Position numbers and translations under genes: made by a program. A stretch of DNA of 64,000 nucleotides from Mesorhizobium sp. ZC-5 (lineage in GTDB: Bacteria; Pseudomonadota; Alphaproteobacteria; Rhizobiales; Rhizobiaceae), in the NCBI RefSeq assembly GCF_025753855.1, contig NZ_JAOWPT010000009.1:62001-126000 (forward strand). The letters run 5' to 3'. Below are positions 42,727 through 55,111 of the stretch, in pieces. The notes below the pieces were generated by a model, which ran no database searches, was not told the origin of the DNA, and saw nothing but the letters and a program-made list of their open reading frames with translations. How positions within the stretch are numbered: the stretch's first letter is position 1; every line of letters starts with the position of its first letter.

Positions 42727-44130
42727 CTACCTCTTCCGATCCAGCACAGCCCTCGTGTTCATCAGCCCGAAACCGAAGTCGCTGTCGCGGCCCTTGTCGC
42801 CGAGGTCGGATGCGGTCTCGGCCAGAGCCTCCTCGATCCAGCCGGCGTCGTGGTCCGGAGCGGCGTGCAGGAGATTGGTGATTGCGCCCGTGACGATCGC
42901 CGCTGCGAAGGAGGTGCCGGTGACCACGTCGGTGCCGCCGCCGACGGGCGCAAGAACCTCGACGCCGGGTGCCGAGATGAAGACGTAAGGCCCGCGGTTG
43001 GCCTTCGGCATCAACTCGTCCTTCTCGTCGGTGGCGGTGACGGCAATGACCCCGTCATAGGCGGCTGGATAGCCGTAGGGCGCCTTGGGGCCATTGTTGC
43101 CGGCGGCGGCGACCAGCACCATGCCGCGCTTCCGCGCCGCCATGCAGCCCAGTTCCAAAAGATCGTTGCGCGGGCCGACGAAGCTCATGTTGACGATGCG
43201 CACGTCCTGCTCCGCCGCCCAGTCGAGAGCCGCAAGCAAGACGTCCATGGTGGATTTGCCGCCCTCAAAGGCGCGCGCGTGATAGATCGCGGCACCCGGC
43301 GCGATGCCGCGAAACGGCCCGACGCCGGCGATCAGCCCGGCGATCGAGGTGCCGTGATCGCGATCCTCGACGGGCGTGCCGGGCATTGCGTCGAAGGTGC
43401 CGGCGATGACGCCGGACAGCGCCGGATGCGTATCGTCGACGGCGGTGTCGATGACCGCGACGCGGACGTTCTCGCCGCTGGCGGCGCTTGAATCGAGAGC
43501 GATGCGCTGGAAGGCATAATTGACGATCGCCGCCGCCTGCTGGAGGTCGTAGATGTGATTGGGCTCCCGGCGCAGCGTGCGCTGATCGCCGGCAAGCTGG
43601 GCAAGCACGACGCCCACCGGACGCCCGTCCGGAATGCCGTAACGCACGACGGTGACACCGAGCAGGGTCGAAAGGCGCTGTGAGCGAATATCGAGGTTGA
43701 GAGCGGCCGCGATGTCCTGGACGGACTGGGCGTCGCCATCGATGGTCACCAGCACCTCGTCGGGAACAAAATCGCCTGACACCGCCTGCGGCGCCGTCAG
43801 CGGGGAGGGCGGTGGATTGGCCGGCGAAGCCTGCGCGGGATCACCCGGCGGCGGCGAACCCGGTCCGGGATTGGGCGTCGGGACAGGCGCAGGATCAGTC
43901 AGGTCGGCACTATCGCCGGGCCGGGCGGAGCCATCAGCGGCACCATCGAAAAGATCGACCAGAATATCGGGCAAGATGACGACGAGGCGGCCGGACGGCT
44001 CGCGGTCAGGCAGTTGTCCGTTGTCAGATGGCTGAACAGTTGGAGCGGTCTGTGCGAAAACGGGACCGGCGGCCAGCAGCGCGGTGGCCAGGACCAACGA
44101 TGCCGAACGTTTCAGGACATTACCCGCCAT
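42727..44130 (-). CDS. Secreted S8-family (subtilisin-like) serine protease
   Basis: A 467-aa exported protease. The signal peptide ends near AAGPVFAQ (residue 27). A Pro-rich linker follows (about 78-112), then a propeptide-like beta-alpha-beta region (122-193, DEVLVTIDGDAQSVQDIAAA). The catalytic domain has D228 in VIDTAVDDTHP, H259 in DHGTSIAGLIAG, oxyanion N345/N346 in AAAGNNGP and S407 in GTSFAAAIVTG, so it should be active. Its start overlaps the anti-sigma gene by 11 nt and it is the third gene of the sigma operon. It may cleave surface proteins or the anti-sigma factor. Confidence 0.9.
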   Translation of the reverse strand: MAGNVLKRSASLVLATALLAAGPVFAQTAPTVQPSDNGQLPDREPSGRLVVILPDILVDLFDGAADGSARPGDSADLTDPAPVPTPNPGPGSPPPGDPAQASPANPPPSPLTAPQAVSGDFVPDEVLVTIDGDAQSVQDIAAALNLDIRSQRLSTLLGVTVVRYGIPDGRPVGVVLAQLAGDQRTLRREPNHIYDLQQAAAIVNYAFQRIALDSSAASGENVRVAVIDTAVDDTHPALSGVIAGTFDAMPGTPVEDRDHGTSIAGLIAGVGPFRGIAPGAAIYHARAFEGGKSTMDVLLAALDWAAEQDVRIVNMSFVGPRNDLLELGCMAARKRGMVLVAAAGNNGPKAPYGYPAAYDGVIAVTATDEKDELMPKANRGPYVFISAPGVEVLAPVGGGTDVVTGTSFAAAIVTGAITNLLHAAPDHDAGWIEEALAETASDLGDKGRDSDFGFGLMNTRAVLDRKR

Positions 44131-44791
44131 CTGCCGGCTTCTTTCCAGCGGTCACGCTCTGGGCAAACGGCGCGGCGGAAATGAGGCCAAGCACGCGGTC
44201 GTAATCGGCGACGGTCCTGGCCGGAATGCCGATGCGAAAGACGCCGGCCGCCGTCGGCCCGCCGGCGATCACCGCGTCGTTTGCATCCAGAAAATCGGCA
44301 ATGTCCGCCATCCTGGCGTCCGGCTTGAAGACGACGAGCGCGAACGGCATTGCCTTGAGATCGTCTTCGCTGCCTGCGATCTCGTAGCCGTCGCCACGAC
44401 CGCCGATATTGACGGCGGCCTGCAACAGGACCAGCGCGATCGCCGCAGCAGCGGTCGCCCAGGCGAGGCCGGACGGCAGGCCGGCGACGCGGCTCCAGAG
44501 TGCGGCCAGCCGGGAACCCGTTGCGGTTTCCCGCGCCGGCCCGGCTTCGCGGTCGAGCATCTTCGAGAAGCGACCGAGCGCATCGGCCGGCGGGCGGATC
44601 GCCTCATTGGCGGCGGACGAGCCGAACAGTTCGGCTTCGGCTTCCTCGAGTGCGGCTGCTGCGGCCGGATCCTCCGCCAGCCATGCCTCGACGGCGGCAA
44701 GGTTCTCGCCGCCGAGCGTGCCGTTGAGGTAGAACGGCAGCAGTGCTTCCATCTCGTCGCGGCGCGACATTTTCGGATCGCTCTCGCTCAT
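44120..44791 (-). CDS. Membrane anti-sigma factor with propeptide-like periplasmic domain
   Basis: A 223-aa protein. The N-terminal 100 residues are cytoplasmic with an anti-sigma-like helix pattern (MEALLPFYLNGTLGGENLAA) but without the zinc His-Cys-Cys motif. One membrane helix spans residues 107-128. The periplasmic part (129-223) has a compact domain at 149-213 (PFALVVFKPDARMADIADFL, then GVFRIGIPARTVADYDRVL). The start overlaps the sigma gene stop by 4 nt (ATGA). It should hold the sigma factor inactive until a periplasmic signal arrives. The domain looks like the propeptide region of the protease encoded next to it. Confidence 0.85.
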   Translation of the reverse strand: MSESDPKMSRRDEMEALLPFYLNGTLGGENLAAVEAWLAEDPAAAAALEEAEAELFGSSAANEAIRPPADALGRFSKMLDREAGPARETATGSRLAALWSRVAGLPSGLAWATAAAAIALVLLQAAVNIGGRGDGYEIAGSEDDLKAMPFALVVFKPDARMADIADFLDANDAVIAGGPTAAGVFRIGIPARTVADYDRVLGLISAAPFAQSVTAGKKPADGG

Positions 44792-45354
44792 GGCCAGCCC
44801 CTGTCGTAGCCGGCGGCTTTCAGCGCCTCGCCAAGCTTCTTGCGTGCGTAGAACATGCGCGTCTTCACCGTCGCCTCGGGAATGGAGAGGATTTCGGCAA
44901 TCTCGGAGACCGACTTGCCGTGATAATAGGCGAGGTCGATCACCGTGCCATGCTCTTCCGGGAGTGCCTCGATCATGCGCTTCAAGGCGGCACCCTTGTC
45001 TTCCTTCATGGCGGTGACTTCGGGATTGTCGGCGCTGTCGGGAACCGCGGCCGCCCGATCGTCGTCGAGCCATTCTTCCTTGCGTTTCCTGAAATGCGAC
45101 AGCGCCTTGAAGCGGGCGATGCCGAGCAGCCAGGTGGAAACCTCCGAACGCGCCTCGAAGCGCGGCGCCTGGCGCCAGAGTTCGAGGAAAACTTCGTTCG
45201 CGATATCGTCGGCCATCGATTCCGATCCTGTCTGGCGCGCCACGAACCGGTAGACCCGGGTGTGGTGGCGCATGAACAGAAGCCGGACGGCAGCGCGATC
45301 GCCGGCCGCGACGCGGGCGACGAGTTCGCGGTCGGAGGCGGCATCAGAGCCCAT
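44788..45354 (-). CDS. ECF-type RNA polymerase sigma factor
   Basis: A 188-aa group IV sigma factor. Region 2 is at about residues 10-85 (ADDIANEVFLELWRQ for the -10 contact area) and region 4 at about 130-180 (GKSVSEIAEILSIPEATVKT). I choose ATG 45354: upstream in-frame ATGs at 45402 and 45477 lie in or before the promoter element at 45374-45401, whose transcripts would start near 45367. A single operon with the anti-sigma factor and the S8 protease follows through overlapping codons. The same promoter element occurs before two secreted-protein genes. Confidence 0.93.
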   Translation of the reverse strand: MGSDAASDRELVARVAAGDRAAVRLLFMRHHTRVYRFVARQTGSESMADDIANEVFLELWRQAPRFEARSEVSTWLLGIARFKALSHFRKRKEEWLDDDRAAAVPDSADNPEVTAMKEDKGAALKRMIEALPEEHGTVIDLAYYHGKSVSEIAEILSIPEATVKTRMFYARKKLGEALKAAGYDRGWP

Positions 45355-45373: not shown

Positions 45374-45401
45374 CTGTCGCATGACGATCCGCAAAGGTTC
45401 A
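45374..45401 (-). promoter_or_regulatory. ECF-type promoter of the sigma operon (TGAACC-16-CGACAG)
   Basis: On the minus strand, TGAACC (45401-45396) and CGACAG (45379-45374) are separated by exactly 16 nt. The AAC-containing -35 is normal for ECF sigma factors. The -10 lies 19 nt before the sigma start codon. Identical spacing and nearly identical hexamers occur at 46872-46899 and 52937-52964. Confidence 0.75.
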
Positions 45402-45538
45402 TCGCAAAATCGCATTGCCCGGACGCTAGCCCAAGAGCGGGAAGGTGACCAGACGGGTTGAAGACAAGCGTCTCCATCGCCACGCCCCGGATTTTTCGCC
45501 GGCCTGGCCTGGTCCCCCCACCCGTGCCTTCGGCACGA

Positions 45539-45577
45539 CCTCCCCCTCCCTTCGACAAGCTCAGGATGAGGGGGAGG
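45539..45577. repeat. Palindromic repeat element, family A
   Basis: CCTCCCCCTC (45539-45548) pairs with GAGGGGGAGG (45568-45577) around a core containing TTCGACAAGCTCAGGAT. A smaller hairpin, CGTGCC-TTC-GGCACG, precedes it. This is a dispersed intergenic repeat type common in Rhizobiales. It lies between the sigma gene and a hypothetical gene. Confidence 0.6.
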
Positions 45578-45591
45578 CACGCCGGCGTGCG

Positions 45592-46389
45592 TCATGACGT
45601 GTCGAAGCGCGCCAGAGCGTCCCGGGCGAGCGCGTGGGTCTCGGACAAAAGGTCGTGCTCTTCGCGGCGCTCCCTTTTCGGAGCCCGGCGCGGCAGCGAG
45701 CCCGGCGGAATTCCGGGCCTGAGCGGCGACAGGGCTCTGGCCTTGCCCGCCGCGCGGGCCCGCATGCGCCGCGAGCGCCAGCGCGCCAGACGATCGGCTT
45801 GTGCCGGCAAATCGTCGAGCGCCCGCGCCAGCGCTGCGATGCGGCGCAAAATGCCGGTGGCGGGAAGCTCGTCGTCGCCGGGCAGGGCCGGTGACGGACC
45901 TTTCCAGCCGGCGCCATGCGGTTTTCCCGAAAAGAACCACTCGTAGCGCTTGGGCCGGTCGGCCAGCGCGAAAAGCGGCAGGCGTGCATCGGAAGTTTTG
46001 CCGTCGCCGGGCGAGGCGGCTATGGAACTACCCCCACCCCTAACCCCTCCCCACAAGGGGGAGGGGGACCGGGTCGGCGCCGGCAGTGTCGCCGGGCGTT
46101 CGGGGGCCCGCGGCTCCTGGATGGGCAGGCCGCTCGCCAGAACGACGATCAGGCGGCGCGTCGCGGCCTCGACGGGTCTCAGCAGCAGAAGCAGCCTGCG
46201 GCAGGCCCGGCGCGACAATGTCCAGGCCTCGCGGCTGGCATCAAAAGCGCGGCCGGCGCGGCCGGTGTCCGAGGCGGCGGAACGCGTGTCGTCGGCCAGT
46301 CCAGCATAGACGAAGATGAAGGCGAGCAGGCGCATCAACGTTGTGTGATGGCGCTGCGTCTCGCTCCCTTGCCGATCCTGCCTCTCCAT
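45592..46389 (-). CDS. Conserved-looking hypothetical Arg-rich protein with in-frame repeat insertion
   Basis: 265 aa from ATG 46389. The sequence resembles an uncharacterised alphaproteobacterial protein with an N-terminal hydrophobic patch (LMRLLAFIFVYAGL) and a basic C-terminal half (ILRRIAALARALDDLPAQAD, RLARWRSRRMRARAAGKA, ending LSETHALARDALARF). The function is unknown. Residues 107-122 (SPSPLWGGVRGGGSS) are the translation of a dispersed palindromic repeat, an apparent in-frame insertion. The frame stays open upstream through repeat DNA, which I exclude. It is not evidently part of the sigma regulon. Confidence 0.6.
   Translation of the reverse strand: MERQDRQGSETQRHHTTLMRLLAFIFVYAGLADDTRSAASDTGRAGRAFDASREAWTLSRRACRRLLLLLRPVEAATRRLIVVLASGLPIQEPRAPERPATLPAPTRSPSPLWGGVRGGGSSIAASPGDGKTSDARLPLFALADRPKRYEWFFSGKPHGAGWKGPSPALPGDDELPATGILRRIAALARALDDLPAQADRLARWRSRRMRARAAGKARALSPLRPGIPPGSLPRRAPKRERREEHDLLSETHALARDALARFDTS
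46028..46069. repeat. Palindromic repeat element, family B, inside a coding region
   Basis: A CCCCTCCCC ... GGGGGAGGGG palindrome with the leading CCCCCACCCCTAA typical of a dispersed repeat in Mesorhizobium-like genomes. It is in frame with the minus-strand hypothetical gene and adds about 14-16 residues rich in Gly, Ser and Pro. Confidence 0.6.
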
Positions 46390-46565
46390 CGTGCTCCGCC
46401 TCGAAAATGAGAATAGGCAAAAGAATAAAGCGAGGCCGGAGGGGCGTGGAAAGACGAAGGCCGAAATTTTTCGGGAATCCGTCAAGCGATTGAAATAGTG
46501 GAAGAAAATATTCGACCTAGGGCGAAAGCAGACGTGGATAAACCTGGCAACGTGGGCCGGTTCCA

Positions 46566-46725
46566 CCTTCTCCCCTTGTGGGAAAGGTGTCGCCCTCGGA
46601 TTTGGCGACAGCCAAGGACGGGCGAGGGGTACCGGCGGGATCGCCAGCGCTTCATTTTTCGACCAACACCCCTCATCCGTCTCGGCGCTACGCGCCGATC
46701 CACCTTCTCCCACAAGGGGAGAAGG
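46566..46725. repeat. Large inverted-repeat element, family C
   Basis: Perfect 18-bp arms, CCTTCTCCCCTTGTGGGA (46566-46583) and TCCCACAAGGGGAGAAGG (46708-46725), enclose 124 nt. Inside are a hairpin TCGGCGC-TAC-GCGCCGA (about 46680-46696) and a string CACCCCTCATCCGTCTCGGC familiar from dispersed Rhizobiales repeats. Confidence 0.7.
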
Positions 46726-46760
46726 GGAAGTGCCCGTTCTGCACCGCCTCACGCTTCCGC

Positions 46761-46803
46761 GACGTTCCGGCATGGGTCCCCGGGTCAAGCCCGATGACGA
46801 GGG
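46761..46803. repeat. Palindromic repeat element, family D
   Basis: CATGGGTCCCCGGGTCAAGC followed by CCGATGACGA resembles a very common alphaproteobacterial dispersed repeat built on a CGGGTCAAGCCCG palindrome. Confidence 0.5.
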
Positions 46804-46871
46804 GAGGGCCGTTTTCGCCAATCGCCAGTGTCCGCGACGGGGCGGAGATGGCGGGCGGGTCAACAAACGCA

Positions 46872-46899
46872 TGAACCTTTTCCCCGGTCGCATCGACTG
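46872..46899 (+). promoter_or_regulatory. ECF-type promoter of the first secreted-protein gene (TGAACC-16-CGACTG)
   Basis: TGAACC (46872-46877), 16 nt, CGACTG (46894-46899). It differs from the sigma-operon element by one base in the -10 hexamer. A good ribosome site (AAGGAG) and an ATG follow at 46943, in frame with the 47189 gene. Confidence 0.75.
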
Positions 46900-47161
46900 A
46901 CCGGCTGGACCGCGTCGTGCGGTCCCAGGAAAGGAGCATGCGATGAGCACAAATTTCGACTGCCGGCATTCACCGGCGTCGAGCATCCCACGCGATGGGT
47001 GCCGTTTCGAAACAGCCACTCCCGAGGTCCATTCGATTGCGTTGACGCAAGGTAAAGGGCCGCGTATCTTTCGTCGCACAAGGGCCACATACCAGACCAG
47101 CAGGGGGGAACCTGCCGGAGAGCATTGGTGCGTGGGCTACCGCGACGATGATCCGGCCTAT

Positions 47162-47182
47162 TCTCCCGCAAATGTCGGGAGA
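47162..47182 (+). promoter_or_regulatory. Hairpin covering the ribosome site of ATG 47189
   Basis: TCTCCCG (47162-47168) and CGGGAGA (47176-47182) form a 7-bp stem with a 7-nt loop that includes the GGGAG ribosome site for ATG 47189. If that start is used, translation could be controlled; if ATG 46943 is used, the hairpin is only incidental. Confidence 0.35.
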
Positions 47183-47188
47183 GCCCTT

Positions 47189-49168
47189 ATGCGCCGCAAC
47201 AGCGGATCCACTGCATCCATCCCGTGCGGCACGCGCGGCGATCATTTTCGAAAGTCGCTCGCTACCACGAGCGGCTTTCTGGCGTTGGCCATGGCCGCGG
47301 GGCTCTGGTTCGCCAGCCCATTGCATGCCCAGGAAACGCAGATCGTCCAGCCCGGCTCGATGGCGGTGACCGGGTTCTCCGGCACCATCATTCCCGGCAT
47401 CGAGGAAGGCCTGCCGCCGGGTGTCGACCCGGTCGACGAAACCTTCATCGACCAGGACCGCGCCACGCTGCGCGTTTTCGACGTTTCGGCACTTGGCGGA
47501 CCCGCCGCCGGCCAGCTCGTGTTCACGCCGCCGCCCTTCGAGGTGCCGGCCGGCCAGATCGGCCAGGTGTTCGGCGTCAAGTATGACGACGGCATCCGCG
47601 ACGGCGTTCCGAGCGGCGTGCCGAACATCTACGCGGCGGCAAGCTCGCTGCATGGCATCCGCATCGTCACGCCGGACGAAGACGCCGACGGCCGTCCAGA
47701 ACGGCAGCGGCGCGGTGCCGAAGGCGCCACCTTCATGGAAGGGCAGTTCGCCGAGGAGAACGGCGGCAGCCCCGGCGCGATCTGGAAGATCGACGGCATT
47801 TCCGGCGCCGTCACGCTGTTTGCCACCATCGACACCAACAGCGGACCCGGCATCGGCAACCTCGCCTTCGACAAGGCGCATCGCCAGTTCTTCGCCTCCG
47901 ACCTCGACACCGGGCTGATCCACCGCATCGGCATAGACGGCGCGCTGATCGACACCTTCGACCACGGCGTCGCCGGCCGGCCGGCGCGCGGACTTGCCGA
48001 AGCCGCCGACGATGGCGCGGTGATGGACATAGAGGGCGCCGCCTTCGACAGCGAAGATCCCGACACCTGGGGCTATACGCAGGACGAACGCCGCGTCTGG
48101 GGCGTCGCCGTGCATGGCGGCCGGCTTTATTACGCAGTCGGCGAAAAAGCCGAGGTGTGGTCGATCGGTATTGCCCGCGACGGCACGTTTGCCGGCGACC
48201 CGCGCTGGGAACTGACAGTGACGGCCGAAGAGGACGACGCCGTTACTGACATCGCCTTCGACAATCGCGGCTTCATGTATCTCGCCCAGCGCGGCAAGAT
48301 CGAGAACCGCTACGACTACAGCCAGTTTGCCGACAGCGGCAAAGGCGAAGTGCTGCGCTACTGGCGCGAGAGCCCCGACGACCCGGCAACGGAATCGATC
48401 TGGGTGGAAGCGCCGGAGACATATGCGGTCGGCTTCCCGGAAGGGCATCGCCAGTCGGCAGGCGGCATCGACCTGCAATATGGCTACGACGCGCAAGGCA
48501 ATTTCAACCGCAATGCCTGCGCCGATACGCTGGTGAAAACCGGTGACAGGCTGCGCGACAACCCGGCGCTCGCCGACCGGCTTGCCGCCGGCGGGCCGCT
48601 TGCCGTGCACGGCGTGCAGATCACCTCGACGTCGCTGGTGCGGCCGGCCAACGAACCGCCGTTCGGTTCGTGGTTCGTCGACTTCGACAGTTTCTACGAG
48701 GACCCGGAAGTGAAGGGTCACGTCGGCGACGTCGAAGTGTGGCGGCCTTGCGACGGCCGCGCCGGCTGGTACGAAGACGTGCCGGGCGGCGGCTTCCTGC
48801 CGCCGTTCTGGCCGCCGGAGTTCCCGCCGCCGGGCAACACTCCACCCTGTCTCGACGTCGAGGCGGTCGAGTATTTCTGCACGCCGGCCGGGCTCGAGGC
48901 CGACATGTATCTCCGTGACGTTGCCGGCATCGGCGGCGATTCGCTGAAGGCGCAATCGCTGGCCCCCGGCATCGGTGTTTCACCCCTGCAGCAGACGCAA
49001 CCCGCCGGCGCACCCTACACACTGGGCATCGCCGGACATTTGCCGGGCGAGGCGTTCGACGTGGGGCTCTGCTTCTACAAGCAATCCGACGCTGACAAGG
49101 GCGGCTACTATCCCTGCTGCAAGGTCAACGTCACCCTCGAAACGCCACCCCTGGCCTGCGAACCGTGA
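47189..49168 (+). CDS. Secreted beta-propeller-like protein with C-terminal Cys domain (sigma-regulon candidate)
   Basis: 659 aa from ATG 47189. A start at 46943, with an excellent ribosome site and a promoter 45 nt upstream, would add 82 residues before the signal peptide. The signal ends at ASPLHAQET. Residues about 40-480 have repeated propeller-like strands (GAIWKIDGISGAVTLFATID, RRVWGVAVHGGRLYYAVGE, AVTDIAFDNRGFMYLAQRG). A Pro-rich linker (FLPPFWPPEFPPPG) precedes a Cys-containing domain at 554-659 that recurs in the next gene. No known enzyme motif is visible. It sits 10 nt before that gene, so they are co-transcribed. It is probably a periplasmic or surface protein. Confidence 0.8.
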   Translation: MRRNSGSTASIPCGTRGDHFRKSLATTSGFLALAMAAGLWFASPLHAQETQIVQPGSMAVTGFSGTIIPGIEEGLPPGVDPVDETFIDQDRATLRVFDVSALGGPAAGQLVFTPPPFEVPAGQIGQVFGVKYDDGIRDGVPSGVPNIYAAASSLHGIRIVTPDEDADGRPERQRRGAEGATFMEGQFAEENGGSPGAIWKIDGISGAVTLFATIDTNSGPGIGNLAFDKAHRQFFASDLDTGLIHRIGIDGALIDTFDHGVAGRPARGLAEAADDGAVMDIEGAAFDSEDPDTWGYTQDERRVWGVAVHGGRLYYAVGEKAEVWSIGIARDGTFAGDPRWELTVTAEEDDAVTDIAFDNRGFMYLAQRGKIENRYDYSQFADSGKGEVLRYWRESPDDPATESIWVEAPETYAVGFPEGHRQSAGGIDLQYGYDAQGNFNRNACADTLVKTGDRLRDNPALADRLAAGGPLAVHGVQITSTSLVRPANEPPFGSWFVDFDSFYEDPEVKGHVGDVEVWRPCDGRAGWYEDVPGGGFLPPFWPPEFPPPGNTPPCLDVEAVEYFCTPAGLEADMYLRDVAGIGGDSLKAQSLAPGIGVSPLQQTQPAGAPYTLGIAGHLPGEAFDVGLCFYKQSDADKGGYYPCCKVNVTLETPPLACEP

Positions 49169-49178
49169 GGAGGAAGAG

Positions 49179-52100
49179 ATGAACAGTCTTCAACTTTTCC
49201 ACCGCGTGGAAAGCACATCCCAAACCGTCATGGAGACGATCATGAAACCCCTGTCATATGTCAGGCGCCAGGCGCGCTGGCTGATGGCGGCCGGGCTCGC
49301 GCTCGCCTCCGTCACCCCGGCGGCGGCGCAACTCACGCTCGCCGACCCGGTCGAACCGCGCATCCAGCTCGAGCGGCCGGAACGCCCGCAACCCGAGCGC
49401 GGCGAACTCAGGCCGTTCTTCGAGAAGATCGGCAAGCAGCGCAACTGCGACTACGTCACCTACCGGCTGCGCTTCGGCTTTCGCGGCGACCCGGAGGCAT
49501 TCGCCGACCCGGCCATCGCGGCACAGCTGAAAGACTACCGCATGGACCTGTCGGACGAGATGCCGAACGGGCTCACCGTCATCAACGTGCAGGCGAGCGG
49601 CGACGGCACCGATGCCGGCGGCGGCGCCCTGCCGGCCGGAACGATAAGCACCACGGCGGACCCCAACGACACCGCCAAGCTCGACGATTTCCGCCTGTCG
49701 TTCACTGACCTCGACGGCAGCGGCGAAATCGGCGAACGCTATGTCGAGGTTCGCATCACCGCCAAGATCGACCCGGCTGCCTTCCCGGCACCGGCTGTCG
49801 TCGACAACCAGGCCTTCGTCCGCATCCAGCGACCGGCCGGCCCGGAGATCTTTGTGCCCTCGCACGATCCGGCGCTGCCGGACGATGGCGACTTCCTGAC
49901 CGGTGCGAAAACCTCGATCAGGATCGACGTCAGCGATTGCGAGCCACCTCCGCCACCGCCTCCCGGCGAAGCCTGCTTCACGATCGAGGAAGGCGAAGTG
50001 GACTGCGTGCCCGGTGGCGGCGCGTTCATCTACTCGATGCCGTTTGGCGCCGAGATGGGCGGCAAGGTCGTGCAGCTCAAGACGACCACGCCCGGCATCA
50101 CCGTCGCGCCTGCCTCGCAGGTCGTGCCTGCCGGCGGCGGCGTGCTCAACTGGACGATCACCGGGGCATTGCCCGGCGACGTGGTGCATCTGATAGTCGT
50201 CGGCGTCGAGACCTATGCCGGTCCGGAAGAGGGCGTCGGCCTGTGCTGTACGCAGGAGATCGAACTCGTCATCCCCGACGACATACGCTGCCCGCCGGAG
50301 GACAGGGAGCCCGACCTCAAGGTCGACAAGCGCGCCGACGTGCCGACCTGCACCAAGGACGGCGGCTGCGACTTCACCATCACGGTCACCAATGTCGGCG
50401 ACGGGCCGTACAACGGCAAGATCGTGCTGGACGAGGTGACACTGCCTGGCAACGCGTCGATCGATTCGGGGCCGAACGTGCCCTGGACCTGCGCGCCGCT
50501 GACGAGCCCGATGCAGTGCGAGCATCCCGAAACCACGCTCAATCCAGGCGAGTCCGTCGATCTCAAGATCGGCTTCAAGCCGGGACCCGGCTGGGACGCA
50601 CGCTACATCCGCAACTGCGCCAAGTATGACTACGCGGCCAGCGGCAAGGAGCTGTTCGGCGTGCAGACCAACGACCGCGCCTGCGCCACGATCCCGCTCT
50701 GCGTACCGGGGCGCGACCGCGAATGCACGCCGGTCGAGAGGAAGGTCGACCTGACGATCCGCAAGTCGGCGCTGCGGCCGGTCTGCTCGATCGACGGCGT
50801 CTGCCTGTTCCGGATCGACATCATCAACAGCGGAACGGCCGCCGCGAACGGCCCGCTGTCGGTGGTCGACACCTATCCGGCCGGCGTGCCGGCATCGTCG
50901 GACTTCGAACCGACGCCGCCATGGGTGTGCGGTCCGACAGGACCCGGCCAGTTCAAATGCGACCATCCCGGCATCGTGCTGGTGCCGGGCGCGTCGACGC
51001 CGATCTTCGTCAGGGCGATCGTCGGGCCGGATTATCAACCGGACCAGCTCGAGAACTGCGCCGAGGTGCTGCCTGTTGCCGACGAGAGCAATCTCGCCAA
51101 CAACAAGTCCTGCGCCAAGGTGCGGGTGCCGCATCGCGATCCCGGCAAGCCGACGCTGCGCATCACCAAGACCTGCGAGCCGATCGCCGGTGCGGCCGGA
51201 CACACATGCCGCATCACGGTCATCAGCCTTGGCACCGCCGCGCCTTCGGGTCCGGTGCGGGTCAACGACGTCGCCGAACTGATCGGCGCCGGCACGCCGG
51301 TCCAGATCCAGACCGTCACGCCCGACGGCGCGGAGTGGGCCTGCGGTCCGGTTCCGGCCGATGCGCTGTCGTGCCAGATCCCGGGTGCGGTGATGACGCC
51401 CGGAACCAGCCGCCATTTCGACGTGACCCTGTCGGTCCCGGCGAACCAGCGGTTCGAGAACTGCGCACGCGGTTCGTTCGGCCCCGCTCCGGGAGACGAC
51501 ATCGTCTATCCGTTGGGCGAGGCCTGCGACCAGGGCGGCACGACGATCAAGGTCGAGAAGACCGGTGACCGCCAGTGCCGTGCCGGCGAGCCCTGCACCT
51601 TCGAGATCACCATCCGCAACGATGGCGACGAGGCCTTCAACGGCCCCGTGCAGATCGGAGACGCGGTCGAGCTCGAAGGCCTCGGCCGCCTGGAAGGCGT
51701 TGCGATCACCTCGATCGAGCCGCCTTTCGGGTGCAGCCCGGAACCGGCGACCCTGCCGATCTCCTGCGATGCCAACCTATCGCTCGGAGCCGGCGAGAGC
51801 CGTGTCCACCAGGTGACGGTCGTCATTCCGGAAGACGCGCTGGGCAATGCGCGCGGTCCAATCGAAGGCCGCAACTGCGTGGCGGTGCTGGAACCGGGTA
51901 CACCGGTGCGCGGCGGTGGGCAGGGCGCTGCCATACCGACGGAAGGCAAATCGGAGGCGCGTGCCACCTGCCACCCGTTCACGGTGGTGAAGGAGGAGGT
52001 GAAGCAGGAGTGCTCGGAAGGCTTCGTGATGAACGACGCCGGCCGCTGCGTCTGCCCGCCCGGAACGCGGTTCCGCAACGGGCAGTGCGTCGGCGGTTCC

Positions 52101-52847
52101 ACCACGCCGGTGCCGCCTCCGCCGGTCGAGTGCAAGTTGCTGCCCGGCCAGGTCCGGACAGAGGATGGGCGCTGCGTCTGCCCACGCGGCACGGAGCTGC
52201 GCAACCAGCGTTGCGTCCGGCCACCGGCGCCGCAGTGCCGTCTGCTGCCTGGCCAGATCAGGACCGAGGACGGGCGCTGCATCTGCCCGCGTGGTACGGA
52301 ACTGCGCAACCAGCGCTGTGTCCGGCCACCGGCACCGCAATGCCGTCTGCTGCCTGGCCAGATCAGGACCGAGGACGGGCGCTGCATCTGCCCGCGTGGT
52401 ACCGAGCTGCGTGGCCAGCGCTGCGTCCGGCCACCGGCACCGCAGTGCCGTCTGCTGCCGGGCCAGATCCGGACCGAGGACGGGCGTTGCATCTGCCCGC
52501 GCGGCACCGAGTTGCGCAACCAGCGCTGCGTCCGGCCACCGGCACCGCAATGCCGGTTGCTGCCGGGCCAGATCAGGACCCAGGACGGTCGCTGCATCTG
52601 CCCGCGCGGCACCACCCTGATCCGGGGTGAATGCCGGCAGCGCCAGGTCGACCCGGTCTGCCGCCGTGGCCAGGTCCTGCGCAATGGCCGCTGCATCGAC
52701 GTTCCGCAGCGCTGCCCGCGCGGCACCGAGGGCAGGCCGCCGAACTGCAAGCCGATCCGGCAGCCGCGGCCGCAGCTCAACCAGAACGTCAATCCCGACG
52801 TTCAAAGAGTGTTGCCGCGCCGTGAACGGCAACAGGCGCCGCAGTAG
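49179..52847 (+). CDS. Large secreted protein with DUF11-like domains and Cys-rich tandem repeats
   Basis: 1222 aa. The start ATG at 49179 follows AGGAGGAAGAG; ATG 49242 (MKPLSYVRRQ) with GGAG is an alternative. The signal ends at TPAAAQLT. Order: an N-terminal domain (55-255), the Cys domain shared with the previous gene (266-375), and four Ig-like DUF11-type domains at about 377-490, 520-655, 657-785 and 787-915. Each of these opens with a strand like DLKVDKRADVPTC or DLTIRKSALRPVC. A degenerate Cys unit (945-980), five near-identical 35-residue Cys repeats (985-1159) and a basic Gln/Arg-rich tail follow. No sortase, OmpA or transmembrane anchor is visible. It is probably a surface or matrix protein. 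Confidence 0.83.
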   Translation: MNSLQLFHRVESTSQTVMETIMKPLSYVRRQARWLMAAGLALASVTPAAAQLTLADPVEPRIQLERPERPQPERGELRPFFEKIGKQRNCDYVTYRLRFGFRGDPEAFADPAIAAQLKDYRMDLSDEMPNGLTVINVQASGDGTDAGGGALPAGTISTTADPNDTAKLDDFRLSFTDLDGSGEIGERYVEVRITAKIDPAAFPAPAVVDNQAFVRIQRPAGPEIFVPSHDPALPDDGDFLTGAKTSIRIDVSDCEPPPPPPPGEACFTIEEGEVDCVPGGGAFIYSMPFGAEMGGKVVQLKTTTPGITVAPASQVVPAGGGVLNWTITGALPGDVVHLIVVGVETYAGPEEGVGLCCTQEIELVIPDDIRCPPEDREPDLKVDKRADVPTCTKDGGCDFTITVTNVGDGPYNGKIVLDEVTLPGNASIDSGPNVPWTCAPLTSPMQCEHPETTLNPGESVDLKIGFKPGPGWDARYIRNCAKYDYAASGKELFGVQTNDRACATIPLCVPGRDRECTPVERKVDLTIRKSALRPVCSIDGVCLFRIDIINSGTAAANGPLSVVDTYPAGVPASSDFEPTPPWVCGPTGPGQFKCDHPGIVLVPGASTPIFVRAIVGPDYQPDQLENCAEVLPVADESNLANNKSCAKVRVPHRDPGKPTLRITKTCEPIAGAAGHTCRITVISLGTAAPSGPVRVNDVAELIGAGTPVQIQTVTPDGAEWACGPVPADALSCQIPGAVMTPGTSRHFDVTLSVPANQRFENCARGSFGPAPGDDIVYPLGEACDQGGTTIKVEKTGDRQCRAGEPCTFEITIRNDGDEAFNGPVQIGDAVELEGLGRLEGVAITSIEPPFGCSPEPATLPISCDANLSLGAGESRVHQVTVVIPEDALGNARGPIEGRNCVAVLEPGTPVRGGGQGAAIPTEGKSEARATCHPFTVVKEEVKQECSEGFVMNDAGRCVCPPGTRFRNGQCVGGSTTPVPPPPVECKLLPGQVRTEDGRCVCPRGTELRNQRCVRPPAPQCRLLPGQIRTEDGRCICPRGTELRNQRCVRPPAPQCRLLPGQIRTEDGRCICPRGTELRGQRCVRPPAPQCRLLPGQIRTEDGRCICPRGTELRNQRCVRPPAPQCRLLPGQIRTQDGRCICPRGTTLIRGECRQRQVDPVCRRGQVLRNGRCIDVPQRCPRGTEGRPPNCKPIRQPRPQLNQNVNPDVQRVLPRRERQQAPQ
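52131..52655 (+). repeat. Five tandem 105-bp repeats encoding Cys-rich 35-residue units
   Basis: Units begin at 52131, 52236, 52341, 52446 and 52551. Each encodes four cysteines at fixed places: C, then about 13 residues, CxC, then about 10 residues, C (as in CRLLPGQIRTEDGRC and ICPRGTELRNQRC). DNA is nearly identical between units, showing recent duplication. Confidence 0.9.
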
Positions 52848-52887
52848 AACCACATCTCGGGCGGCAGCATTCGCCGCGTGAGACGTG

Positions 52888-52915
52888 AAACCCCGCCGGG
52901 AAACCGGCGGGGTTT
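52888..52915 (+). terminator. Strong intrinsic terminator behind the second secreted-protein gene
   Basis: A perfect 12-bp stem AAACCCCGCCGG (52888-52899) and CCGGCGGGGTTT (52904-52915) with a GAAA tetraloop, continued by T and CC. It lies 41 nt after the stop codon and separates the two-gene unit from the third secreted-protein gene. Confidence 0.88.
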
Positions 52916-52936
52916 TCCATTGGCCTTTCGGCATCG

Positions 52937-52964
52937 TGAACCAAATCCACCGCCGCAGCGACAG
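52937..52964 (+). promoter_or_regulatory. ECF-type promoter of the third secreted-protein gene (TGAACC-16-CGACAG)
   Basis: TGAACC (52937-52942), 16 nt, CGACAG (52959-52964), both hexamers identical to the sigma-operon element. It lies 36 nt before the ATG at 53000 and just after the terminator, exactly where a new promoter is needed. Confidence 0.75.
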
Positions 52965-52999: not shown

Positions 53000-55111
53000 A
53001 TGTCACTTCAAACAAGCAGCATCCGGAATTCGGCAGCCGTCCTCGCGCTGGTTGCCGCAGCATTCGCCGCCACGCCGGCCGCAGCACTCAGCGACAGCGC
53101 CAAGCTCAAGTCGATGTCGTTCAACGTCGAGGCCGACCACGGCATCATCCGCGTCATTTCGACGGACGGGGAGAAATGGGACAAGCTCAAGGCAGGCGCG
53201 GTGGCGCTGGACGCCAGTTTCAGCATCAACACGAAATGGCCCGGCTTCGTCCAGACCGCCACAATCCGCCTCGGCAGTTGTGGCGGGATGTCGTGTTTCT
53301 CGTTCCCACAACTGTGGTTCAAGAACATCGAGGAACGCGATTACAGCGGCTCGGCCATCACCGGCTTCCAGACGTCCCTGCTGCCGATCTCATCTTCGGA
53401 CGGCATCGCCATCAATCCGGCGGCGGATGCCATCCTGAGCCGATGCAATGAACATCTCCAGGCCGACGGACCAACCAAATCCTATTCGTTCACGCAGGAG
53501 ATGTACGCCACCCTCGCCATCGATACCGATGAGTCGCTGAACATGAACTTCATTCATAATCAGCCCGATGAAGTCGGCGGTCCGTCCCAGACGGCAATCG
53601 ACCACACCGACAGCGATGCCTTCAGCGTCAACGTCATCTGCGAGCCGGTGATCAAGTCGCCCGTCAGCGACCTCAAACACGATTTCGGCGAGTTCGACGT
53701 CGAGAACGTCAAGCTGTTCCTGACTACCTATCAGTCGAACCAGCCGGGCTCGAATCCGGGCACGGTTTGTCCCGCGCTCAAGGTAACCAGCCGCGCCGAG
53801 GCGAACCAGGCCGGTCCGGTGACGATGCGCATCTGGCGCCAGAAGGACGACGGGCCGATCACCTCCGAGGTGAAACAGGCCTGGGCGTCGTTCGATGCCG
53901 CCAAGAACGGCTATTTCGCCACTTACGAAAAGTGGGAAGACGTCGGCACGACCTCGTATTTCCAGTTCAAGACGGAGATCGTCGAGGCCGGTCCGTTCGG
54001 TCCCTTCGACGGCTGGAAGGACATCACCGTACATTGCACCAGCCCCGGCGGCGGCGGTTTCACCGATGTGCCGCAGGACAATCCCGACCTGCCCAAGCCC
54101 AAGGCCGAATGGCAGGGCGAAGTAACGGTCGCCGACAGCGCCGGCCGCGACAAATCCTGCCCGCGCAAGGGCCAGGTGTTCTTCGCGGTAACCCGTGCCG
54201 CACCCGGCGATTTCGACTACCGCATCCAGTGCTCGAACGGCGCCTTCTTTACCGGCACCGCCACGGGCTACGACCAGGGCAGCGGCGTGTTCGAGGCCTA
54301 TGGCGCGCATGACCTTTCGATCAACCGGACACGCTCGATCCAGTGCACGCTGCAGGAATTGCAGCCGGCGCCGGTGACGGTCGATACCGACAAGGAAGAC
54401 TTCACCTGCAACAACCCGAACTTCGATCCGGCCGCGGACGACCTCGTCGTGGACACACGCCCGCATTTCGACGAGCCCGAACCCACCGTGCCGCCGGTCG
54501 TCGTCGATCCAGGCCGCAAGTGCCTGCCGCACCAGCAGTTGAAGCGCGGCAAGTGCGTCGACAGGCCGGTAGTGGCGCCTTGCAAGGCGAACGAGAAACG
54601 GGTGGGCAACAAGTGCATCCCCGTCAGCATCCACTGCCTGCCGGGCTTCCATCAGGTCGGCTTGAAGTGCGTGCCCAATCCGTCGCCCCCGGATAAGTGC
54701 AAGCGCAACGAGGTGCGTATCAACGGCCGCTGTGTGAAGAAGCCCGACGTCAGCATCCTGTGCAAGCCTGGCTTCGTACTGAAAGGCAAGACCTGCGTGC
54801 GCAAGCCGACCGTCGAAGTTCCCTGCAAGCGCGGCGAACAGAGGATCAACGGCAAATGCGTGAAGAAGCCGGACGTGACCATTCTGTGCAAGAAAGGCTT
54901 CAAGCCGGTCGGCAAGACGTGTGTTCGGCAGGCGACGATCACCAAGCTCTGCCCTGACGGCCGGCCGATGATACGCGGCAATTGGGTGAAGAAGCCCGTG
55001 GCCGTGCCGTTGCGGACGCTGACCGCACCGAAGCGCACCATCAACAGGCCGACGATCGAAAAGCCGTTCAAGCGGCCAGTCCAGAAGCGGATACTGCGCC
55101 GCGCAAACTGA
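53000..55111 (+). CDS. Secreted protein with C-terminal Cys-rich repeats (sigma-regulon candidate)
   Basis: 703 aa. The start ATG at 53000 follows AAGGGAGAGAAAG. The signal peptide ends at TPAAALSD. Residues 30-490 form one or two unrecognised domains with scattered Cys and Trp (SCGGMSCFSFPQLWF, TYEKWEDVGTTSYF). Residues 508-652 are alternating Cys units such as CKRNEVRINGRCVKKP and LCKPGFVLKGKTCVRKP. The last copy has Trp where Cys is expected (RGNWVKKP). The C-terminus is basic (KRPVQKRILRRAN). The layout, signal plus new domain plus Cys repeats, parallels the gene before it. Its own sigma-type promoter and terminators on both sides make it a separate unit. Confidence 0.82.
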   Translation: MSLQTSSIRNSAAVLALVAAAFAATPAAALSDSAKLKSMSFNVEADHGIIRVISTDGEKWDKLKAGAVALDASFSINTKWPGFVQTATIRLGSCGGMSCFSFPQLWFKNIEERDYSGSAITGFQTSLLPISSSDGIAINPAADAILSRCNEHLQADGPTKSYSFTQEMYATLAIDTDESLNMNFIHNQPDEVGGPSQTAIDHTDSDAFSVNVICEPVIKSPVSDLKHDFGEFDVENVKLFLTTYQSNQPGSNPGTVCPALKVTSRAEANQAGPVTMRIWRQKDDGPITSEVKQAWASFDAAKNGYFATYEKWEDVGTTSYFQFKTEIVEAGPFGPFDGWKDITVHCTSPGGGGFTDVPQDNPDLPKPKAEWQGEVTVADSAGRDKSCPRKGQVFFAVTRAAPGDFDYRIQCSNGAFFTGTATGYDQGSGVFEAYGAHDLSINRTRSIQCTLQELQPAPVTVDTDKEDFTCNNPNFDPAADDLVVDTRPHFDEPEPTVPPVVVDPGRKCLPHQQLKRGKCVDRPVVAPCKANEKRVGNKCIPVSIHCLPGFHQVGLKCVPNPSPPDKCKRNEVRINGRCVKKPDVSILCKPGFVLKGKTCVRKPTVEVPCKRGEQRINGKCVKKPDVTILCKKGFKPVGKTCVRQATITKLCPDGRPMIRGNWVKKPVAVPLRTLTAPKRTINRPTIEKPFKRPVQKRILRRAN

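Follow-up and report, generated by a model that had tools for sequence, protein, structure and literature searches.

A TGAACC-N16-CGAC element as the candidate promoter of an extracytoplasmic function sigma factor and an exported-protein regulon in Mesorhizobium and its relatives

One bipartite element occurs three times in a 64,000-nt window of the genome of Mesorhizobium sp. ZC-5 (contig NZ_JAOWPT010000009.1, positions 62,001 to 126,000; all coordinates below are positions in this window). It precedes an operon encoding an extracytoplasmic function (ECF) sigma factor, the first of three genes for secreted proteins (open reading frame (ORF) 5) and the third of these genes. The question raised by this locus is whether the three sites are promoters read by the sigma factor encoded beside them. 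We consider it probable, at about 0.87, that they are and that they drive a regulon of exported proteins, judging from motif placement and its conservation in related genomes.

A search of the window for TGAACC-N16-CGACWG (N, any base; W, A or T) returned these three matches and no more, as originally predicted (Table 1). All three share the -35 hexamer and a 16-nt spacer, and one of the -10 boxes (CGACAG at the 45374 site, CGACTG at 46872, CGACAG at 52937) carries a single-base change. The window holds 25 copies of TGAACC, and CGAC follows at 16 nt after just these three. From the motif end to the ATG the distance is 19 nt for the sigma gene, 43 nt for ATG 46943 and 35 nt for ATG 53000, with a Shine-Dalgarno-like stretch before each start codon. 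Dinucleotide shuffles of the window gave a mean of 0.01 matches and none of 100 reached three, a statistic to be read with caution since the motif was picked only after the window had been inspected. A strong terminator had also been claimed just ahead of the third site. The hairpin is there (-27.4 kcal/mol, z -5.9); its T-run is just four T, too short for the automatic terminator scan, which omitted it for that reason. An Rfam search of 42-56 kb gave no match at gathering scores.

Instead, the sites could be left over from a repeated element, or could match by chance and have been picked out when the window was first read. The post hoc choice of motif would favour this, as would repeat-like DNA in the 45.4-46.9 kb gap and the genome-wide count of the bare motif. 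That count had been set as a test able to refute the original prediction, and it came out at chance. The genome of strain ZC-5 contains 37 TGAACC-N16-CGAC sites, compared with 35 and 34 for control spacers in the same codon phase (N13 and N19) and 23 and 13 for out-of-phase spacers (N15 and N17). With the N13 and N19 controls about equal, the bare count was dropped as proof of a regulon. Ten fixed bases are therefore too few, and the chance-level count is overcome only by an extended motif together with comparative evidence.

More bases are needed for an informative element, which reads about TGAACC(TTT/AAA)-N13-CGAC-NN-A. This form was chosen after the sites had been viewed, and its trailing A was then tested in other genomes. 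When the trailing A is required and TGAACC must be followed by three A/T bases, 6 of the 37 sites in the genome remain, all three window sites included. Among 84 distinct sites, extra information was found in T/C after TTT, in G before CGAC and in the trailing A. Little further information beyond the searched bases resides in the flanks or in most of the spacer, which argues against a repeated element.

Motif and sigma gene were found together across the family. We scored genomes as sigma-positive when they gave a sigma match at E 1e-50 or better, as did 26 of 248 family genomes. The motif TGAACCTTT-N13-CGAC had 96 matches in these 26 genomes, 25 of which have one, and 53 matches in the 222 others, 43 of which have one (Fisher p 4e-15, with p values too small because members of one family do not count as independent samples). 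With one site subtracted for each sigma-positive genome, these genomes average 2.7 sites and the others 0.24. One genome counted as sigma-negative, G103, has four sites and a sigma gene truncated at a contig end (L256), and the contrast is therefore slightly understated. Three bases past CGAC, at a position that lay outside the search, 72 of 79 distinct sites of sigma-positive genomes and 2 of 39 controls have A, and G precedes CGAC in 59 of the 79 compared with 8 of the 39. This trailing-A contrast, the co-occurrence with the sigma gene and a contrast at dsbA described below contradict the repeat or chance account, and placement before start codons is retained across genera. We give that account almost no credence, less than any other alternative.

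The sites might also be ECF promoters used mainly by a different sigma factor, of EcfG or ECF26 type, with the present one a mere neighbour. Six further ECF-like sigma matches occur in the genome of strain ZC-5, and AAC is common to the -35 of many ECF sigma factors. Motif number follows the present sigma gene, yet 40 of 41 scanned genomes hold some ECF-like sigma factor, which makes another sigma factor an unlikely main user. The ECF26 (in S. meliloti roughly GGAAT..CGT, PMC6180224) and ECF16 (PMC8315932) motifs also differ from the one found here; these and later statements on published systems refer to the covered sections of the cited papers.

The prediction that the sigma factor is autoregulated is supported by the position of the site in relatives. 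In the best 80 of 357 named-genome loci with a sigma relative, mostly Mesorhizobium, 78 carry TGAACC-N16-CGAC upstream of the sigma orthologue, mostly at a distance of 59 nt from the matched start, and A stands three bases past CGAC in 78/78. A spacer scan over these 80 loci gave 81 matches at N16, three at N15 and none at N17. The two loci lacking the site (L131 and L151) retain the TGAACC box. All 80 loci showed an anti-sigma-like gene (partial at contig ends) and 75 the gene for an S8 protease, the contigs of the other five stopping 196-833 nt past the sigma gene. Among the sigma-positive family genomes, 18 of 26 have an exact site within about 260 nt of the sigma gene. A candidate autoregulated bipartite promoter with a spacer of about 16-17 nt, as is typical of ECF sigma factors, is thus indicated by conservation.

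The wider set is conserved in places. One locus (L124) holds all of it, with orthologues of ORF5 (68% identical), of the second secreted protein, which has a DUF7929 domain (51%), and of the third (57%), and with sites before the sigma gene, ORF5 and the third secreted gene. In other families of the order, L069 and L070 (sigma 63 and 57% identical) keep both boxes at a different spacer; in the more broken L071 and L072, a looser pattern found no site.

Sites elsewhere stand mostly in front of genes for exported proteins. For this comparison 80 regions were taken, namely 76 of the 96 matches and four of G103, leaving out 16 directly before sigma and four of strain ZC-5. Together with four own-genome loci they gave 88 site rows, a few sites appearing twice through overlapping loci, and 40 of the 49 matches in the remaining sigma-negative genomes served as the control. 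Signal peptides were called by a crude rule. An ORF with such a signal peptide follows in 47 of 88 rows compared with 3 of 40 controls; in 16 further rows the protein belongs to the ORF5 family, which has a leader ahead of its signal peptide. A Shine-Dalgarno score of at least 4 was found in 63/88 rows and 7/40 controls. The first base of the element is typically about 45-90 nt ahead of the start codon. The targets cluster into the ORF5 family (17), BA14K-like (7) and DsbA/ScsC-like (6) proteins, a family of about-60-aa peptides (6) and a group with ARDGG after the signal peptide (7 rows, two being one site); the remainder are several pairs and 21 singletons, part of which look like chance. 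ARDGG directly after the signal peptide is common to many targets in a genus whose sigma factor is 50% identical (L211-L221). An ARDGG-type gene with a site also occurs in the sigma-negative genome G094 (L282), perhaps under a diverged sigma factor.

In strain ZC-5, the longer motif outside the window precedes genes for a BA14K-like protein (L011), a DsbA/ScsC-like protein (L018) and a short exported peptide (L067), the last resembling the about-60-aa family by eye. Pfam names the first two BA14K and DSBA with ScsC_N. For dsbA, an exact upstream site was found in 12 of 27 sigma-positive genomes (the 26 plus G103) and in none of 30 sigma-negative ones (seven from sigma-holding genera and 23 others). 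Eleven of these sites lie 53-69 nt before the expected start and one at 161; with one mismatch tolerated the counts were 15/27 and 0/30. The original prediction of a local set of surface proteins stands in part. The window genes fit it, and the same promoter also precedes BA14K-like, DsbA/ScsC-like and short exported proteins elsewhere. Most targets carry export signals by the crude rule, evidence of export and not of a surface location. As far as sequence can tell, the regulon is wider than the local set and is found across genera.

Binding by an ordinary repressor or activator would be another use for such sites, and half-sites about two helical turns apart would fit a DNA-binding protein. 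Neither box repeats the other in direct or inverted form, the element is unidirectional, and its usual place about 45-90 nt before starts, also before the sigma gene itself, speaks for a promoter. We regard a repressor or activator as very improbable.

Several further observations weigh against promoters of this sigma factor, besides the chance-level count of the bare motif and the dependence among the genomes compared. Eight of the 26 sigma-positive family genomes have a sigma gene with no exact site within about 260 nt, and in one of them (L173) the spacer is N15. In G085 and G168 the site lies about 650 nt upstream of sigma, ahead of another exported protein, and G140 has no match to the TTT motif form anywhere in its genome. 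The exact dsbA site is absent from 15 of 27 sigma-positive genomes. No ORF follows the site in 8 of 88 rows (8 of 40 in the control), and some rows precede chance-looking ORFs. In L151 (Nitratireductor luteus), where ORF5 and the DUF7929 protein are present, both promoters keep TGAACC and have ACAC or GCAC in place of CGAC.

Changes of this kind are seen more widely. In Nitratireductor-like loci (L151, L163, L167, L170, L318, L321, L322), TGAACC is intact in several sigma, ORF5 and dsbA promoters, and NCAC or similar, or other spacing, replaces N16-CGAC. Similar -10 changes occur in some sites of G058, G153 and G107, and the changed sigma promoter of L170 allows an alternative reading, CGAC at spacer N14. 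Since the ORF5 site of G058 has an ordinary CGAC, we treat it as no more than possible that the -10 box has drifted jointly in this lineage. In G168 and G085 (L212, L213), a 125-aa exported protein with a site sits between the promoter and the sigma gene.

On the favoured reading, the membrane anti-sigma factor encoded next to the sigma factor would hold it inactive. Once released, the sigma factor would bind and drive its own operon (sigma, anti-sigma and S8 protease), the ORF5-DUF7929 operon and the third secreted gene. It would probably drive at least three more genes of strain ZC-5, for the BA14K-like protein, the DsbA/ScsC-like thiol oxidoreductase and the short exported peptide. The working promoter would be about TGAACC-TTT-N13-CGAC-NN-A. 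We infer that the purpose would be to build and disulphide-fold exported, partly cysteine-rich envelope proteins. The reading offers a putative promoter code and target list for a sigma factor of 26/248 sampled family genomes and many named Mesorhizobium loci. Its targets, exported proteins of unknown role and a possible folding oxidoreductase, suggest an envelope or matrix programme. Two uncommon features may be added to it, a propeptide-like anti-sigma domain and a second promoter and start in ORF5.

The architecture is that of an ordinary ECF system. The 188-aa sigma protein contains Sigma70_r2, Sigma70_r4_2 and Sigma70_ECF, the domain make-up of an ECF (group 4) factor; it scores 281 bits against NF009168 (cut-off 236), and its profile matches solved ECF sigma structures. 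The predicted anti-sigma factor has an N-terminal domain, one membrane segment (residues 109-127) and a periplasmic ferredoxin-like domain. Anti-sigma profile models matched it weakly, all under cut-off; its gene position and membrane segment fit the role. In the S8 protease alignment D228, H259 and S407 are invariant, presumably as the catalytic triad. Divergent from the sigma operon of L070 lies a gene for a 1300-aa TPR-CHAT-protease-like protein (L070:4524-8426), its domains read from the translation by eye. The stretch between the sigma operon and ORF5 (45460-46840) contains G+C-rich repeat-like sequences (CCTCCCC..GGGGAGG) and no clear gene; these we take to resemble rhizobial intergenic repeats.

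The anti-sigma periplasmic domain (44120-44413) was predicted as beta-alpha-beta-beta-alpha-beta with a mean pLDDT (predicted local distance difference test) of 81. Foldseek ranked a subtilisin propeptide in complex with subtilisin first (E 6e-3, with no match passing 0.001), and its top 16 also included other propeptides and the inhibitor POIA1. With VIA-align, propeptides scored about 7, tied with or under many unrelated ferredoxin-like proteins. The top rows were Lrp/AsnC, NapD and NikR proteins, and propeptides were not separated from other ferredoxin-like folds. Subtilisin propeptides form what we take to be inhibitor family I9, and a Pfam search of 24 members of the anti-sigma domain found no I9-type family at E up to 1. 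Comparison of the domain with the S8 pro-domain by hhalign gave a probability of 12% (P 0.0023, one comparison); the N-terminal domain as control gave 0.1% (P 0.42), and the global alignment 0.2%. The model of the full S8 protein is poor (mean pLDDT 54.6), with the same strand and helix order in its pro-domain region (125-190). Descent of the anti-sigma domain from an S8 pro-domain was dropped as a claim of sequence proof, the evidence being suggestive only. The S8 gene adjoins the anti-sigma gene, so an interaction of the two products is a natural guess, though no more than that. The S8 protease might dock on the anti-sigma periplasmic domain and cut the anti-sigma factor, freeing the sigma factor, in which case the anti-sigma factor would sense free active protease. 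If true, this would be an unusual route to activating an anti-sigma factor.

The first secreted gene may be read from two promoters. ORF5 encodes 741 aa from ATG 46943 and 659 aa from the internal ATG 47189, the shorter product having a signal peptide at its N-terminus. We compared 19 ORF5 leaders, from the window, 16 motif-found family loci, L124 and L151. All contain TTGACS-N17-TANNNT (S, C or G), a housekeeping-type pattern expected 0.0006 times per 150 nt of own-genome DNA, 66-126 nt (mostly about 100) past the first upstream ATG. It is followed by a GGGAG-like ribosome site and then by an in-frame ATG giving an N-terminal signal peptide. The reading frame of the upstream ATG is open in 19/19 leaders, and the sole leader gap is 3 nt. 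By codon position, the leader showed 63/59/84 differences and the main part 68/45/197 (seven pairs summed, not independent), indicating little protein-level constraint on the leader. The leader (46943-47190) was accordingly rejected as a normal coding region, having little codon-position bias. ORF5 can probably be transcribed from the housekeeping promoter, and transcription from the sigma promoter may lengthen the protein at its N-terminus. The message from the ECF promoter would then be longer and include an in-frame start further upstream, and sigma activation would place about 80 residues ahead of the signal peptide and change the destination of the protein. That both additions hold together, a propeptide-mimicking anti-sigma factor cut by the operon's S8 protease and nested ORF5 promoters that relocate the protein, we consider tentative and rather doubtful.

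The second secreted gene starts 10 nt past ORF5 and is probably in the same operon. Because it directly follows ORF5, it probably needs no promoter of its own.

Table 1. Features of the sigma locus and its predicted targets in the window.
Feature	Position	Strand	Basis
Exported protease of the S8 (subtilisin-like) type, 467 aa, with an N-terminal pro-domain of its own; closes the operon	42727..44130	-	Pfam Peptidase_S8 4e-43
Predicted anti-sigma factor, 223 aa	44120..44791	-	Weak anti-sigma-model matches, hydrophobicity, structure model and fold matches
ECF sigma factor, 188 aa, sigma2 and sigma4 domains	44788..45354	-	Pfam Sigma70_r2, Sigma70_r4_2; NF009168
Candidate ECF promoter of sigma operon, TGAACC-N16-CGACAG	45374..45401	-	Pattern search; kept before 78/80 sigma orthologues
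Candidate ECF promoter of first secreted-protein operon	46872..46899	+	Pattern search; counterpart before orthologue in 16 family genomes and L124
First secreted protein (ORF5)	46943..49168	+	ORF; two in-frame starts, 46943 and 47189
Putative housekeeping-type promoter in ORF5 leader, TTGACG-N17-TATCTT	47042..47070	+	Pattern in 19/19 leaders
Second secreted protein, DUF7929 and DUF11 domains, 61 Cys	49179..52847	+	Pfam; start and Cys count
Terminator-like hairpin, short T-run	52887..52916	+	Folding energy; absent from automatic terminator scan
Candidate ECF promoter of third secreted-protein gene	52937..52964	+	Pattern search; counterpart in L124
Third secreted protein, 703 aa with 25 Cys; Pfam gave no match	53000..55111	+	ORF, Pfam search, Cys count

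Neither the promoter, its target set nor the sigma-anti-sigma-S8 set was described in titles or abstract starts among the literature matches listed, or in the covered parts of PMC8999054, PMC6180224, PMC8315932, PMC7406223, PMC3420878, PMC4287350 and PMC10880074. The ECF26 systems of Sinorhizobium meliloti (RpoE1, RpoE3, RpoE4 and RpoE6 with EcfR anti-sigma factors; PMC6180224) share with the present one a co-encoded anti-sigma factor, autoregulation and neighbouring targets, and a serine protease gene is transcribed divergently from rpoE6. Their promoters have roughly a GGAAT -35 and a CGT -10 (PMC6180224). The window promoters do not have this form and instead carry TGAACC and CGAC; ECF26 targets are sulfite oxidase and others, and the covered part of that paper mentions no propeptide-like anti-sigma factor for these systems (PMC6180224). 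ECF16 or SigF-type systems (Brucella, PMC8315932; Bradyrhizobium EcfF, PMC3420878) resemble ours in their related hosts and bipartite promoters, the Brucella form being (T/C)GTAAC-N17-CGAA (PMC8315932). They differ in having a DUF1109 anti-sigma factor with six membrane segments and in their induction by HOCl or H2O2 (PMC8315932, PMC3420878). ECF54 loci have subtilase and CHAT-domain neighbours (PMC8999054), and here the TPR-CHAT-like gene of L070 adjoins the operon. ECF54 acts without an anti-sigma factor (PMC8999054), in contrast to the anti-sigma-like gene, itself identified by prediction, that stands beside sigma in 80/80 named loci. Subtilisin propeptides differ from the anti-sigma periplasmic domain in that it has no relevant Pfam match and weak profile similarity to them, within a fold that is itself common; the likeness lies in the beta-alpha-beta-beta-alpha-beta fold, for which a propeptide was the best Foldseek match.

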